64,000 bases of DNA, from assembly GCA_027620655.1 (NCBI GenBank), contig JAQCDS010000002.1, positions 248,001-312,000 of the forward strand, in the 5' to 3' direction. Below, in pieces: positions 32,414 through 60,796 of this stretch (its first letter is position 1; each line of letters opens with the position of its first letter). A program made the position numbers and the translations under genes. The notes under the pieces were generated by a model, which searched no databases, was not told where the DNA came from, and worked only from the letters and a program-made list of their open reading frames with translations. Origin of the DNA: Bacteroidota bacterium (GTDB lineage: Bacteria; Bacteroidota; Bacteroidia; Flavobacteriales; Flavobacteriaceae).

Positions 32414-33331
32414 ATGGTAGCTACAGTATTGATAACAGGCGCAACGGGTTTAGTGGGTAAAAAACTCACACAACACCTTTTGGACAAAGGGTATAGAGTT
32501 CATATCCTAACCACTCAAAAGGCGTTATCATCCACTGAAACAAACATTCAATATTTTTATTGGAATCCTCAAAATAATAAGATCGATATTTCTTGTTTTA
32601 AAGGTGTTGAAGTTGTAATTAACCTTGCAGGAAGCCCAATAGCACAACGCTGGACAAAATCAGCCAAAGCGTCTATTTTGAATAGTCGTGTACAAGCATT
32701 GAATGTTTTGGCCAGTGCCATTAAAGAAAATAAGTTTCCAATACAACATTTAATCTCTGCAAGTGCCATTGGGATTTATCCTGATTCAAAAACGAATTAT
32801 TATCAGGAGGAGGATGTTGTTTCAGAAAACTGTTCGTTTTTAAGAACAGTAGTTCAGAAATGGGAAGCTGCAGCCCAACAATTTGAAGCATTAAATATTA
32901 AAATAACAATACTTCGTATTGGGATTGTTTTAGATAATAATGGAGGTGCTCTTCCAAAAATAATGACACCCATTCAAAACTATTTTGGTGCCGTTTTGGC
33001 ATCTGGTGAGCAATGGCAATCATGGATTCATAGTGATGATCTAGTAGCCATGTTTGTTTATATTTTGGAATCCAAAAAAGAAGGTGTGTATAACGCTGTA
33101 GCACCAAACCCAGTACGTCAATCAGAACTGACAAAAACAATAGGGCATGTTATAAAAAAGCCGATTTTTTTACCCAATGTTCCAGAGTTCATGCTAAAAC
33201 TGATGCTTGGAGGTATGAGTGCGGTTGTGCTTGAAAGTCAACGCGTATCTTCAAAAAAAATTCAATCCATAGGGTTTAAATTTGAATATCATGAGCTTTC
33301 AGCGGCACTAAATGATCTTCTGAAAAAGTAA
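32414..33331 (+). CDS. TIGR01777 family NAD(P)-dependent epimerase-like protein
   Basis: 305 residues of the extended SDR fold. ITGATGLVGKKL is the nucleotide-binding GxxGxxG motif; NLAGSPIAQRWT, SASAIGIYPD and the RIGIVLDNNGGALPKI block are family marks, followed by WIHSDDLVAMF and the C-terminal DUF1731 domain ending in ALNDLLKK. Substrate unknown; an effect on cell division has been proposed for the E. coli relative YfcH, without proof. It follows mnmD after 102 bases and precedes the grpE promoter. Confidence 0.9.
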   Translation: MVATVLITGATGLVGKKLTQHLLDKGYRVHILTTQKALSSTETNIQYFYWNPQNNKIDISCFKGVEVVINLAGSPIAQRWTKSAKASILNSRVQALNVLASAIKENKFPIQHLISASAIGIYPDSKTNYYQEEDVVSENCSFLRTVVQKWEAAAQQFEALNIKITILRIGIVLDNNGGALPKIMTPIQNYFGAVLASGEQWQSWIHSDDLVAMFVYILESKKEGVYNAVAPNPVRQSELTKTIGHVIKKPIFLPNVPEFMLKLMLGGMSAVVLESQRVSSKKIQSIGFKFEYHELSAALNDLLKK

Positions 33332-33370
33332 TTTAAAACCTCAAACGTCATCTTTTTAAAATTTTTTTCG

Positions 33371-33411
33371 TGACATTTTGACATTTTATCTAGAATGGCA
33401 GTACTTTTGCC
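33371..33411 (+). promoter_or_regulatory. sigma-54-like promoter with upstream TGACA repeats before grpE-dnaJ
   Basis: TGGCAGTACTTTTGCC (33396-33411) fits the sigma-54 (RpoN) pattern TGGCAC-N5-TTGCA: GG and GC are exactly 12 bases apart, with one mismatch in each half. Nine bases upstream TGACATTTTGACATTTT (33371-33387) is a direct repeat of TGACATTTT. The promoter ends 35 bases before the grpE start. The same stretch holds the inverted repeat ATGGC/GCCAT, so a repressor site is an alternative reading. Confidence 0.5.
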
Positions 33412-33445
33412 ATCAATTAAATCAAATAATTAATTTCTTTTTAAA

Positions 33446-33961
33446 ATGACCAAAAAGGCAACAAAGCAAAAAGTAAAAGAAGAAGAATCAAAAGCGCCAG
33501 AAGTTGAAATCTCTGTTGAGGAACAACTCCAATCAGAACTAGCGCAAGAAAAAGATAAATTTTTACGCCTTTTCGCAGAATTTGAAAACTACAAACGCCG
33601 CACCTCAAAAGAGCGTATAGAATTGTTTTCTACAGCAAGTCAAGATGTGATTCAGGCATTATTACCAGTTTTGGACGATTTTGATCGTGCAATGGTAGAA
33701 CTATCAAAACACGAAGAATCGGAGCTTTCTAAAGGCGTTGAACTCATAAAAAATAAGCTCAACAATACCTTACAACAAAAAGGATTAAGTCTTGTTGAAG
33801 TTAATAAAGGCGATGATTTTAATGCCGACAATCATGAGGCAGTAACACAAATTCCTGCACCTACCGATGATTTAAAAGGAAAAATTATAGACGTTATAGA
33901 GCAAGGATATAAACTTGGGGAAAAAGTGATTCGTTTCCCAAAAGTAGTCATAGGGCAATAA
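33446..33961 (+). CDS. grpE: nucleotide exchange factor GrpE
   Basis: 171 residues. It dimerises through a long N-terminal helix and opens the nucleotide site of DnaK. The charged N-terminus (KVKEEESKAPEVE) leads into the coiled coil, with FLRLFAEFENYKRRTSKER; the C-terminal beta domain has GDDFNADNHEAVTQIP and GYKLGEKVIRFPKVVIG, the GrpE signature. dnaJ begins 21 bases later, giving the co-chaperone pair in one transcript; dnaK is not in the window. Confidence 0.96.
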   Translation: MTKKATKQKVKEEESKAPEVEISVEEQLQSELAQEKDKFLRLFAEFENYKRRTSKERIELFSTASQDVIQALLPVLDDFDRAMVELSKHEESELSKGVELIKNKLNNTLQQKGLSLVEVNKGDDFNADNHEAVTQIPAPTDDLKGKIIDVIEQGYKLGEKVIRFPKVVIGQ

Positions 33962-33982: not shown

Positions 33983-35092
33983 ATGGCAAAGCAGGATTAT
34001 TATGAAGTATTGGGGGTAAGCAAAAATGCTTCTGCAGCAGAAATTAAAAAAGCGTATAGAAAAATGGCTATTAAGTATCATCCGGATAAAAATCCAGATG
34101 ATAAATCTGCAGAAGAAAAATTTAAAGTTGCTGCTGAAGCTTACGAAGTTTTAAGTGACCCCGATAAAAAGGCACGATACGATCAATTTGGACACCAGGC
34201 ATTTGAAGGTGCTGGTGGATTTGGTGGTGGTTCCATGAATATGGATGATATTTTTAGTCAATTTGGCGACATATTTGGTGGTGCTTTTGGCGGCGGTGGT
34301 TTTGGCGGTCAGCGCAGACAAAGAACCGCTAGAGGAACAAATCTTAGAATTCGTGTCAAACTTACACTTGAAGAAATTGCTAATGGTGTTGAGAAAAAAA
34401 TAAAAGTAAAACGAAAAAAGCAAGCCAAAGGGGTTACTTATAAAACTTGTGGTACTTGTAATGGAACAGGCCAGATAACACGCATTACAAACACGATTTT
34501 GGGACGAATGCAAACAGCTACACCATGTACTACTTGTGGTGGCTCTGGTCAAATTATAGATCATCGTCCAGCCAATGCTGATGCCAATGGTTTTGTGGTG
34601 GAAGAAGAAACAGTATCTATCAAAATTCCAGCGGGTGTAGAAGATGGGATGCAACTCAAAGTTTCGGGAAAAGGCAATGCAGCACCAGGAAATGGTATTT
34701 CAGGGGATTTGTTGGTTGCTATTTCAGAAGAAGCACATCCAAAATTACAGCGAGAAGGCGATAATTTACACTACGATTTATATGTTAGTTTGTCCGATGC
34801 TGTTCTGGGCTCATCTGTAGAAATTGAAACGGTCTCAGGTAATGTTAGACTTAAAATTGAAGCTGGTGTTCAGTCTGGTAAAATACTACGCTTACGTGGT
34901 AAAGGAATTCCAAATATCAATGGATACAACAAAGGAGATTTATTGGTTCATATCAATGTTTGGACACCAAAAACTCTGAATAAAGAACAAAAATCATTCT
35001 TTGAAAAAATGCGTAACAATGAGCATTTTGAACCTAAACCAGAACACTCTGATAAATCCTTTTTTGAAAAAGTAAAAGATATGTTTTCATAA
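33983..35092 (+). CDS. dnaJ: chaperone DnaJ, Bacteroidota type with reduced zinc-finger domain
   Basis: 369 residues. J domain at 1-70 with YHPDKNP (HPD motif), a Gly/Phe-rich linker, then the cysteine-rich domain and the C-terminal substrate-binding domains. The zinc region has just two CxxCxGxG motifs, C156-C159 (CGTCNGTG) and C182-C185 (CTTCGGSG), 22 residues apart, where E. coli DnaJ has four. So one zinc site remains; this is the usual state in Flavobacteria as far as I recall. It stimulates the DnaK ATPase and delivers unfolded proteins. A terminator follows. Confidence 0.96.
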
Positions 35093-37464: not shown

Positions 37465-38631
37465 ATGTCAAAAATATTAATCATAGAAGACGAAGAAGCG
37501 ATTCGCCGTGTTTTGGTAAAAATCTTAACGGAAGAAAATAAGGATTATCAAGTTTCTGAATCTGAAGATGGACTCGCTGGAATTGAATTGATTAAAGCAT
37601 CAGATTTTGATTTAATATTATGTGATATTAAAATGCCAAAGATGGACGGTGTTGAAGTCTTAGAGGCTGTTAAAAAGATAAAACCAGAAATTCCAATTGT
37701 AATGATATCTGGTCATGGTGATTTGGACACTGCCGTTAACACCATGCGTTTGGGTGCCTATGACTATATTTCAAAACCACCAGACTTAAATCGCCTTTTG
37801 AATACCATTAGAAATGCACTCGACAGAAAAGAATTGGTTGTAGAAAACAAACGTCTGAAACGAAAAATAAGTCAAAACTATAAAATGATTGGCGAAAGTG
37901 CACCTATGTCAAACATAAAGTCAATCATTGAAAAAGTAGCGCCTACTGAAGCTCGTGTGCTTATTACAGGGCCAAACGGAACAGGAAAAGAGTTGGTTGC
38001 ACATTGGTTGCATCAAAAAAGTGAACGTTCTAGAGGACCTATGGTAGAAGTCAATTGTGCGGCTATTCCAGCAGAACTTATTGAAAGTGAGCTTTTTGGA
38101 CATATCAAAGGCGCTTTTACAAGTGCTCATAAAGACCGTGCTGGAAAATTTGAGGCTGCGAACAAAGGCACTCTATTTTTGGATGAAATTGGAGATATGA
38201 GCTTGTCTGCTCAAGCCAAAGTGCTGCGTGCACTTCAAGAAAATAAAATTCAGCGTGTAGGAAACGATAAAGATATTAAAGTAGACGTAAGAGTTGTTGC
38301 AGCGACCAATAAAGATTTAAAAAAGGAAATTGCTGAAGGTCGTTTTAGAGAAGATTTATACCATCGGCTTGCTGTAATTCTAATAAAAGTACCTGCATTA
38401 AATGACAGACGAGATGATATTCCGCTATTGGTTGACTTTTTTAGTACCAAAATTGCATCGGAACAAGGGACTGCAAAAAAACAATTTTCAGGAGCTGCTC
38501 TAGAGCTTTTAAAGGGTTACAATTGGACGGGTAACATCAGAGAATTGCGCAATGTAGTTGAGCGTCTAATTATACTTGGTTCTGATGAAATCTCAGAAAA
38601 TGATGTAATTTCTTTTGCCAGTAAATCTTAA
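37465..38631 (+). CDS. sigma-54-dependent response regulator lacking a C-terminal HTH
   Basis: 388 residues. The receiver domain (1-120) has the phosphoacceptor D54 in LILCDIKMPKMDG and the acidic pair at residues 8-11. The AAA+ domain (about 140-375) has Walker A GPNGTGKE at 169-176, the sigma-54 contact loop as GAFTSA at 216-221 (normally GAFTGA), and Walker B LFLDEIGD. The protein ends shortly after NWTGNIRELRNVVERLI with ISFASKS, so the Fis-type helix-turn-helix of NtrC proteins (usually up to about 450 residues) is absent. It should activate sigma-54 promoters without binding an enhancer itself. No histidine kinase gene is adjacent. Confidence 0.92.
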   Translation: MSKILIIEDEEAIRRVLVKILTEENKDYQVSESEDGLAGIELIKASDFDLILCDIKMPKMDGVEVLEAVKKIKPEIPIVMISGHGDLDTAVNTMRLGAYDYISKPPDLNRLLNTIRNALDRKELVVENKRLKRKISQNYKMIGESAPMSNIKSIIEKVAPTEARVLITGPNGTGKELVAHWLHQKSERSRGPMVEVNCAAIPAELIESELFGHIKGAFTSAHKDRAGKFEAANKGTLFLDEIGDMSLSAQAKVLRALQENKIQRVGNDKDIKVDVRVVAATNKDLKKEIAEGRFREDLYHRLAVILIKVPALNDRRDDIPLLVDFFSTKIASEQGTAKKQFSGAALELLKGYNWTGNIRELRNVVERLIILGSDEISENDVISFASKS

Positions 38632-59619: not shown

Positions 59620-60796
59620 TTTTTTTGAACGCTTCTAGATCTTTTTGCCAACTTTCACGAATATCATTGGCACTCCTTCCGCTTTCGATTTGTTGTTGTA
59701 GTTGAGTTTGACCTGCTAGTTTTGTAAAAAATGGATTAAAAAAATCAGATTTATTGGATGTATTGTTGTATGCATCAATAAGCCATTCTAAATTAATAGA
59801 ACTCAAAAACTCTGAGTCTGTAAGGTCTTTTCCAAAACATTTTACACCATTGTGCATGGGGTTTTTTGCCCCAAGATTTGGTTTTGGAGTAAACACATAG
59901 TTGTATTTTTCTGAATTTAGAAAAGGGCTTCCATAAACTTGAAATTGAGTGCTTGTACCTCGCCCAGAACTCACGTTAGTACCCTCAAAAAAACATAAGC
60001 TAGAGTATAAATTTACTGCTTTAGCATTTGGAATGTTAGGCGATGGTTTTATGGGTAAGTGATAGGTTTTTTTATGGTGATAATTAACAACAGGAATAAT
60101 TTTTAATTCACATTGAATACCATTTTCAAGCCAACCTTCACCATTAATCATTTTTGCATATTCTCCAATAGTCATTCCATACACTACTGGTACAGGATGC
60201 ATCCCAACAAAACTTTTGTAATTTAAATCTAAAATAGGCCCATCAATATAGTGACCATTAGGATTGGGGCGATCTAAAATCAAAATAGGAATATTCATCG
60301 TGGCACAGGTTTCCATCATATAATGCAGTGTGGAAACAAAAGTGTAAAACCGTGCGCCAACATCCTGAACATCAAAAATTACAACATCAAGATCTCTTAA
60401 AATTTCAGGGTTTGGTTTTCTATTAGCACCATAAAGTGATACTATGGGGAGTCCCGTTTTGATATCTAGACCATCTTTTACATATTCGCCTGCATCAGCT
60501 TTTCCTCTATATCCATGCTCTGGTGCAAATACTTTTTTAATCTTAATTCCTAATTTTAATAGTGAATCTACCAAGTGTGTATGCGCTCCACTTGACTCTT
60601 TATTATTTTTAAAAATTACCGTAGTTTGATTGGCAACAACACCAATATTTTTTCCATTGAGAAATGGCAAATAAAGTGCCAACTGATTGGCGCCCACAAT
60701 GGGGAAACTTTCGTTTTTAACAGTTGATCGATTTCCACAAGAAAGAAGTACCACAACAAATAATAAAACTGTATTTTTGATAAACTTTAATTTCAT
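59591..60796 (-). CDS. namZ: exo-beta-N-acetylmuramidase NamZ family (DUF1343) lipoprotein
   Basis: 401 residues with a lipoprotein signal (FIKNTVLLFVVVLLSC). DUF1343 blocks: VVANQTTV, FAPEHGYRGKADAGE, VSLYGANRKP, VIFDVQDVGARFYT, LDRPNPNGHYIDGP and FFEGTNVSSGRGTSTQFQVYG. Founding members cleave MurNAc from the non-reducing end of wall fragments and so recycle peptidoglycan. Its start is only nine bases from the start of the divergent permease gene. Confidence 0.92.
   Translation of the reverse strand: MKLKFIKNTVLLFVVVLLSCGNRSTVKNESFPIVGANQLALYLPFLNGKNIGVVANQTTVIFKNNKESSGAHTHLVDSLLKLGIKIKKVFAPEHGYRGKADAGEYVKDGLDIKTGLPIVSLYGANRKPNPEILRDLDVVIFDVQDVGARFYTFVSTLHYMMETCATMNIPILILDRPNPNGHYIDGPILDLNYKSFVGMHPVPVVYGMTIGEYAKMINGEGWLENGIQCELKIIPVVNYHHKKTYHLPIKPSPNIPNAKAVNLYSSLCFFEGTNVSSGRGTSTQFQVYGSPFLNSEKYNYVFTPKPNLGAKNPMHNGVKCFGKDLTDSEFLSSINLEWLIDAYNNTSNKSDFFNPFFTKLAGQTQLQQQIESGRSANDIRESWQKDLEAFKKIRANYLLYP

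Follow-up and report, generated by a model that had tools for sequence, protein, structure and literature searches.

The grpE and dnaJ genes described here lie in a 64-kb window (the whole stretch of DNA that was analysed) of a 1.9 Mb genome in 18 contigs, and are followed by genes for an ABC-transporter ATPase, its permease and EBP1, in that order. Between the end of the preceding gene (33331) and the start of grpE (33446) lies TGACATTTTGACATTTTATCTAGAATGGCAGTACTTTTGCC, with an operator and a sigma-54 core (Table 1). TGGCAGTACTTTTGCC begins at position 33396, with its GG pair at 33397-33398 and its GC pair at 33409-33410, and the segment TGGCA-N6-TTGC (33396-33410) matches nine of the nine fixed bases of the sigma-54 core. 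An earlier note on this DNA had remarked on a 12-base spacing between the two pairs, and this is correct: counted from the first base of each pair the distance is 12, and 10 bases separate the two, which is the sigma-54 spacing. Further upstream is the direct repeat TGACATTT-TGACATTT, with a period of 8 and its first base at 33371; the operator ends 12 bases before the -24 box. The note had taken this repeat for a possible activator or heat-shock element. The repeat is present and its assignment as an activator-type element is retained, with the correction that it is better read as TGWCA-N3-TGWCA, which is direct at grpE and inverted at dnaK. The core also doubles as an inverted repeat, with 33396-33412 reading TGGCA-N7-TGCCA, an arrangement that is kept only in part of the family.

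Table 1. Features of the grpE-dnaJ locus and the two candidate activators.
Feature	Position	Strand	Remarks
Operator TGACA-N3-TGACA	33371..33383	+	Two TGWCA half-sites, 8 bases apart; centre about -45 from the predicted sigma-54 start
-24 element TGGCA	33396..33400	+	Sequence
TACTTTTG, overlapping	33402..33409	+	Matches TAnnTTTG, the housekeeping -7 box of Bacteroidota; start expected near 33414
-12 element TTGC	33407..33410	+	Sequence
Predicted sigma-54 transcription start	33422..33422	+	Placed by known sigma-54 geometry 12 bases (± 1-2) past the GC pair
grpE	33446..33961	+	Pfam PF01025
dnaJ	33983..35092	+	Pfam PF00226, PF01556
EBP1	37465..38631	+	Receiver and sigma-54 AAA+ domain (Pfam); candidate second activator
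EBP2	C18:99292-100551		PF00158 at 13-179 with GAFTGA, HTH_8 at 382-418; nothing N-terminal of AAA+

The core alone is not above chance: when one mismatch is allowed, the window contains 22 matches where 18.4 would be expected. Exact TGGCA-N6-TTGC occurs 24 times in the genome (five times for a reversed-pattern control), and these matches were rejected as a regulon because 22 of them are inside stop-free frames of at least 191 codons and only the one at grpE has an operator. The second exact match of the window (60667-60681, minus strand) is inside a 402-codon stop-free frame, has no operator and is ascribed to chance. The exact direct repeat, TGACATTTTGACATTTT, was found once in the genome and its near matches were not above the reversed control (15 + 14 versus 14 + 19); as this search was uninformative, the operator was relaxed to TGWCA. 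The composite of operator and core, on the other hand, is a single site in the window at the threshold used, with none in five shuffled windows.

Sixty relatives were compared, one of which had no GrpE match, leaving 59 grpE upstream regions. The composite scores at least 16/19 in 57 of these, and the remaining two score 12 and 14; none of the shuffled grpE regions (n = 1180) reaches 16, their maximum being 15. A chance origin of the composite was rejected on the basis of the shuffled windows and the shuffled grpE regions. Anchoring was also carried out on the core alone (8 or 9 of 9 bases), so that the operator does not select the sites. In the 56 grpE regions anchored in this way, an operator of at least 9/10 bases is located at offset -25 in 41 and at -24 or -26 in five more, and all other offsets, over a span of about 190, total eight. 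At the level of sequence, the composite site is conserved across the sample of the order Flavobacteriales. In other orders of the class, 13 of the 16 grpE regions outscore every one of their 20 shuffles. None of 20 grpE regions from outside the class, where grpE may not head its operon, scores 15 or more, and L396, also from outside it, scores 14.

The module is carried mainly by chaperone genes. A pattern search of the 60 relatives, which allowed up to three mismatches, gave 111 places in 50 genomes, compared with three for the reversed pattern. Ninety-two of these places precede five chaperone families: 44 grpE, 29 dnaK (one with its gene cut by a contig end), eight groES, seven htpG and four hsp20 (the last by Pfam). 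The remaining 19 consist of 12 at other genes or no gene, secA and two proteins of ~100 residues without a known family being among them, and seven chance-like places (G059:C21, G007:C50, G007:C55, G002:C38, G010:C112, G037:C108 and G039:C1), which were counted as non-chaperone without gene inspection and make up 7 of the 67 non-grpE places. Recurrence before dnaK, groES, clpB and htpG had been proposed in the earlier note as a check. In the same genome, the element is found before dnaK (C13:85023, with the start codon 50 bases downstream; gene confirmed as HSP70), groES (L303:5522, spacer 13, score 16; confirmed as Cpn10) and clpB (L417:8536, score 16; confirmed as ClpB), the groES and clpB sites deviating from the consensus; the htpG gene of this genome was not located, and its rpoN has no such site upstream. 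In the relatives, the element recurs before dnaK, groES, htpG and hsp20. The pattern used to scan a collection of some 85 000 genomes required both operator and core, and consequently shows which genes have the module rather than how many lack it. Among the matches listed, 76 of 80 loci precede grpE, two groES and two clpB, the last four all being from Bacteroidales.

One RpoN is encoded in this genome, together with two strong PF00158 activators, and RpoN is present in all 60 relatives. Of 105 sites, 104 keep the GG and 104 keep the -13 G, counts that are favoured because the sets were chosen by composite score or pattern. The overlapping TACTTTTG allows a different assignment, in which it would be the -7 box of a housekeeping (sigma-A) promoter, with TTG at 33378-33380 as the -33 box 21 bases away, and the likeness to sigma-54 would be coincidental. 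The Bacteroidota housekeeping consensus is TAnnTTTG at -12 to -5 (Guerin et al., 2021, PMC9723704). This site has a perfect box, as have 30 of the 37 grpE sites within the family, and two relatives (G003 and G002; L009 and L011) keep it yet lack the C in their GC pair at -12. TAnnTTTG is nevertheless found in only 31 of the 105 sites, which apart from those 30 amount to one of 20 grpE sites of other families, none of 29 dnaK sites and none of 19 groES, htpG and hsp20 sites. This contrast in TAnnTTTG (30/37 in the family grpE sites, 1/68 beyond them) is not favoured by the way in which the sites were chosen, unlike the 104/105 for the GG and the -13 G. In addition, the half-site spelling TGACATTATGACA of several relatives destroys the TTG of the -33 box, and the published grpE-dnaJ start of Flavobacterium psychrophilum belongs to a sigma-54 motif (PMC9723704). 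Judged by the TAnnTTTG distribution, a plain sigma-A promoter is very improbable and was set aside.

The core interior, GTACTT, is conserved throughout the family beyond what sigma-54 needs. In this family the two promoters might overlap, with sigma-A providing the basal and sigma-54 the induced level of grpE-dnaJ from starts 8 bases apart. The near-invariance of the interior in the family, compared with its freedom elsewhere, would suit such a dual promoter. The same conservation could serve the sigma-54 spacer itself, however, and a second grpE start is absent from the published F. psychrophilum table (PMC9723704). We consider a dual promoter possible but rather doubtful.

The preferred assignment to sigma-54 is consistent with published data. 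In the main text of the F. psychrophilum start-site map (PMC9723704), grpE-dnaJ, dnaK, groES-groEL, htpG, clpB and lon are placed under the sigma-54 motif SM4; as at the present site, -24/-12 elements precede the first five of these, and their starts were mapped. Non-chaperone genes are also placed under the motif there, and a heat-shock regulon is consequently not defined by its sigma factor alone. A 2025 PLoS One survey (PMC12316311) describes chaperone genes as enriched under predicted sigma-54 promoters in Bacteroidota and cites grpE of B. thetaiotaomicron and of F. psychrophilum as sigma-54 dependent. In view of the map and the survey the promoter class is not new, and the grpE-dnaJ site is an instance of it. 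The sigma-54-like promoter that the earlier note placed before grpE-dnaJ is thus supported by its core, its recurrence, the presence of RpoN and the published F. psychrophilum start.

The position of the operator was analysed by taking the best core in each of 59 grpE and 60 groES regions and listing all operators of at least 9/10 bases. The spacer between operator and -24 box is 11-13 bases in 47 grpE and 29 groES regions and exactly 12 in 43 of the 59 grpE regions. Distal operators (spacer above 13) number 28, or 0.235 per region compared with 0.009 in shuffles, and 26 of them fall at spacers of 22-23 (two), 32-34 (14) or 42-44 (10), with single cases at 20, which equals 12 plus the 8-base half-site step, and 76. 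Eight operators are out of phase, at spacers of 4, 6 or 7; 16 of the 119 regions have a core without an operator of 9/10, and six have no core. Of the 12 periods tried, 10.75 gives the strongest distal phasing (mean resultant 0.86), and the Rayleigh p at a period of 10.5 is 2.6e-9, a value that takes no account of shared descent. In the sequences compared, the operator sits 12 bases from the -24 box or approximately one, two or three helical turns beyond. Spacer steps of 10-11 bases fit an activator bound on one face of the helix, and this phasing points to an activator site. An operator centred near -45 is unusual, since most known sigma-54 activator sites lie farther upstream.

In one small genome of 0.34 Mb (G051, L411), groES is preceded by a perfect operator, TGACATTATGTCA, at a spacer of 23, one turn above the usual distance. 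RpoN, EBP2 and groES are retained in this genome; its grpE has no acceptable core.

EBP2 is the better candidate for the protein that reads the operator. Its gene lies in the order miaB-EBP2-small gene-TPR-like gene-secG-groES-groEL, the two middle genes having no family assignment. EBP2 is found in all 60 relatives at E values below 1e-130, is single-copy in 58 and, in 48 of the 60 genomes, is encoded no more than 5 kb from groES. It is the sole strong PF00158 match in six of 14 small genomes, and all six carry one or more operators (at least 9/10 bases) separated from a core by 12-13, 23, 42 or 44 bases. The recognition helix ISxRTLYRK varies little among the 25 EBP2 loci compared, a comparison in which frames were chosen by the presence of RTLYRK and all 25 loci had one. 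Between the AAA+ domain and the helix-turn-helix, residues ~281-303 of the linker form a conserved stretch, EREILYKVLFDMKSDLNDLKK, which has no family match and is possibly a docking site. The second candidate, EBP1, has GAFTSA in place of GAFTGA and no DNA-binding domain by Pfam. At least 35 of the 59 genomes encode it no more than 8 kb from grpE, and the six single-activator genomes, which retain operators, have no protein of its type.

From this co-occurrence, EBP2 probably binds the operator. It is also conceivable, albeit unlikely, that another protein, a repressor or a class-II-like activator, occupies the operator while EBP2 or EBP1 acts from solution or from elsewhere. The usual 12-base spacer, seen in most grpE regions, is tight for an enhancer, and the location of EBP1 beside grpE, combined with its lack of a DNA-binding domain, would be accommodated by such an arrangement. 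The phased steps, in contrast, suit an activator site, and operators are kept in the single-activator genomes even though an EBP1-type protein is missing there.

Control by HrcA and CIRCE was considered and rejected. The absence of a CIRCE element stated in the earlier note is borne out, the best match in 33151-33450 having 10 of the 18 specified bases. HrcA exceeds the cut-off in none of the 60 genomes, with two weak matches overall, and the match in the genome studied here is sub-threshold (19.9 bits versus a cut-off of 22.2). Control by sigma-32 (RpoH) or by HrcA/CIRCE has the same target genes; the latter differs from the present case in that here CIRCE is absent and HrcA is not detected above the cut-off.

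Taken together, grpE-dnaJ are best described as having a sigma-54 promoter next to an operator for its activator. We assign a probability of about 0.8 to this reading, and a lower one to the step in which EBP2, the most likely activator, binds the operator. The sequences themselves show the core and the operator, that both are conserved, that chaperone genes are the targets and that the spacers are phased; the use of sigma-54 in this organism is what we infer. In the proposed mechanism, RNA polymerase with RpoN would bind TGGCA-N6-TTGC and wait, while the activator would occupy TGWCA-N3-TGWCA on the helix face that its distance from the -24 box dictates. As unfolded proteins accumulate, the activator would open the complex with ATP, and grpE-dnaJ would be induced jointly with dnaK, groESL, clpB, htpG and hsp20. 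The activity of EBP2 would be set by a restraining partner, which must exist in this scheme because EBP2 is without a sensor domain; given that chaperones are the targets, our guess, by analogy, is that free chaperones are this partner. In its broadest form, to which we give even odds, the proposal is that the heat-shock response of Bacteroidia is run by one ancestral sensorless activator, EBP2, which reads the helix-phased TGWCA-N3-TGWCA and replaces sigma-32 and HrcA. If true, control by EBP2 would explain why RpoN and EBP2 are retained in the 0.34 Mb genome, with groES and a perfect operator adjacent.

Two known systems resemble this arrangement. PspF of Escherichia coli has its AAA+ domain first and a Fis-type helix-turn-helix last, has no sensor domain and is restrained by PspA. 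EBP2 has the same domain order and likewise no sensor domain; PspF, however, serves envelope stress and pspA, whereas EBP2 is encoded beside groESL and contains a conserved stretch in its long linker. In Myxococcus xanthus, the heat-shock gene lonD is under the sigma-54 activator of the HsfA/HsfB system, in which a kinase is paired with the response regulator HsfA. A heat-shock gene and a sigma-54 activator are common to both cases, but EBP2 is without a receiver domain. Neither an operator nor an activator is assigned to the SM4 promoters in the section of the F. psychrophilum study that lists them, and 'palindrom' and 'inverted repeat' do not occur in its main text (PMC9723704). The passages of the 2025 survey on chaperone genes give no activator or activator site for them, and 'upstream activating' and 'helical' are not used (PMC12316311). 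The phased operator and its likely reader were not found in searches of the open-licence literature, supplements aside.

Bacteroidia are dominant in the sea and in the gut, and the shared operator, the candidate activator and the start-site prediction make the switching of their chaperones testable. Our reading also suggests why every sampled genome of the order has RpoN, and would provide an example of a sigma-54 activator site near the core with strict helical steps. The related switches before other chaperone genes suggest how these bacteria manage a heat-shock response in which no repressor is known.

Module-like sites also occur before other genes. In two genera of one family, genes for proteins of ~101 residues with no Pfam match (L292:571-873 and L294:1671-1973) have such a site 27-30 bases upstream, and their products are possibly a stress protein of a new kind. 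A further module-like site, with three mismatches, lies ahead of secA in L291.
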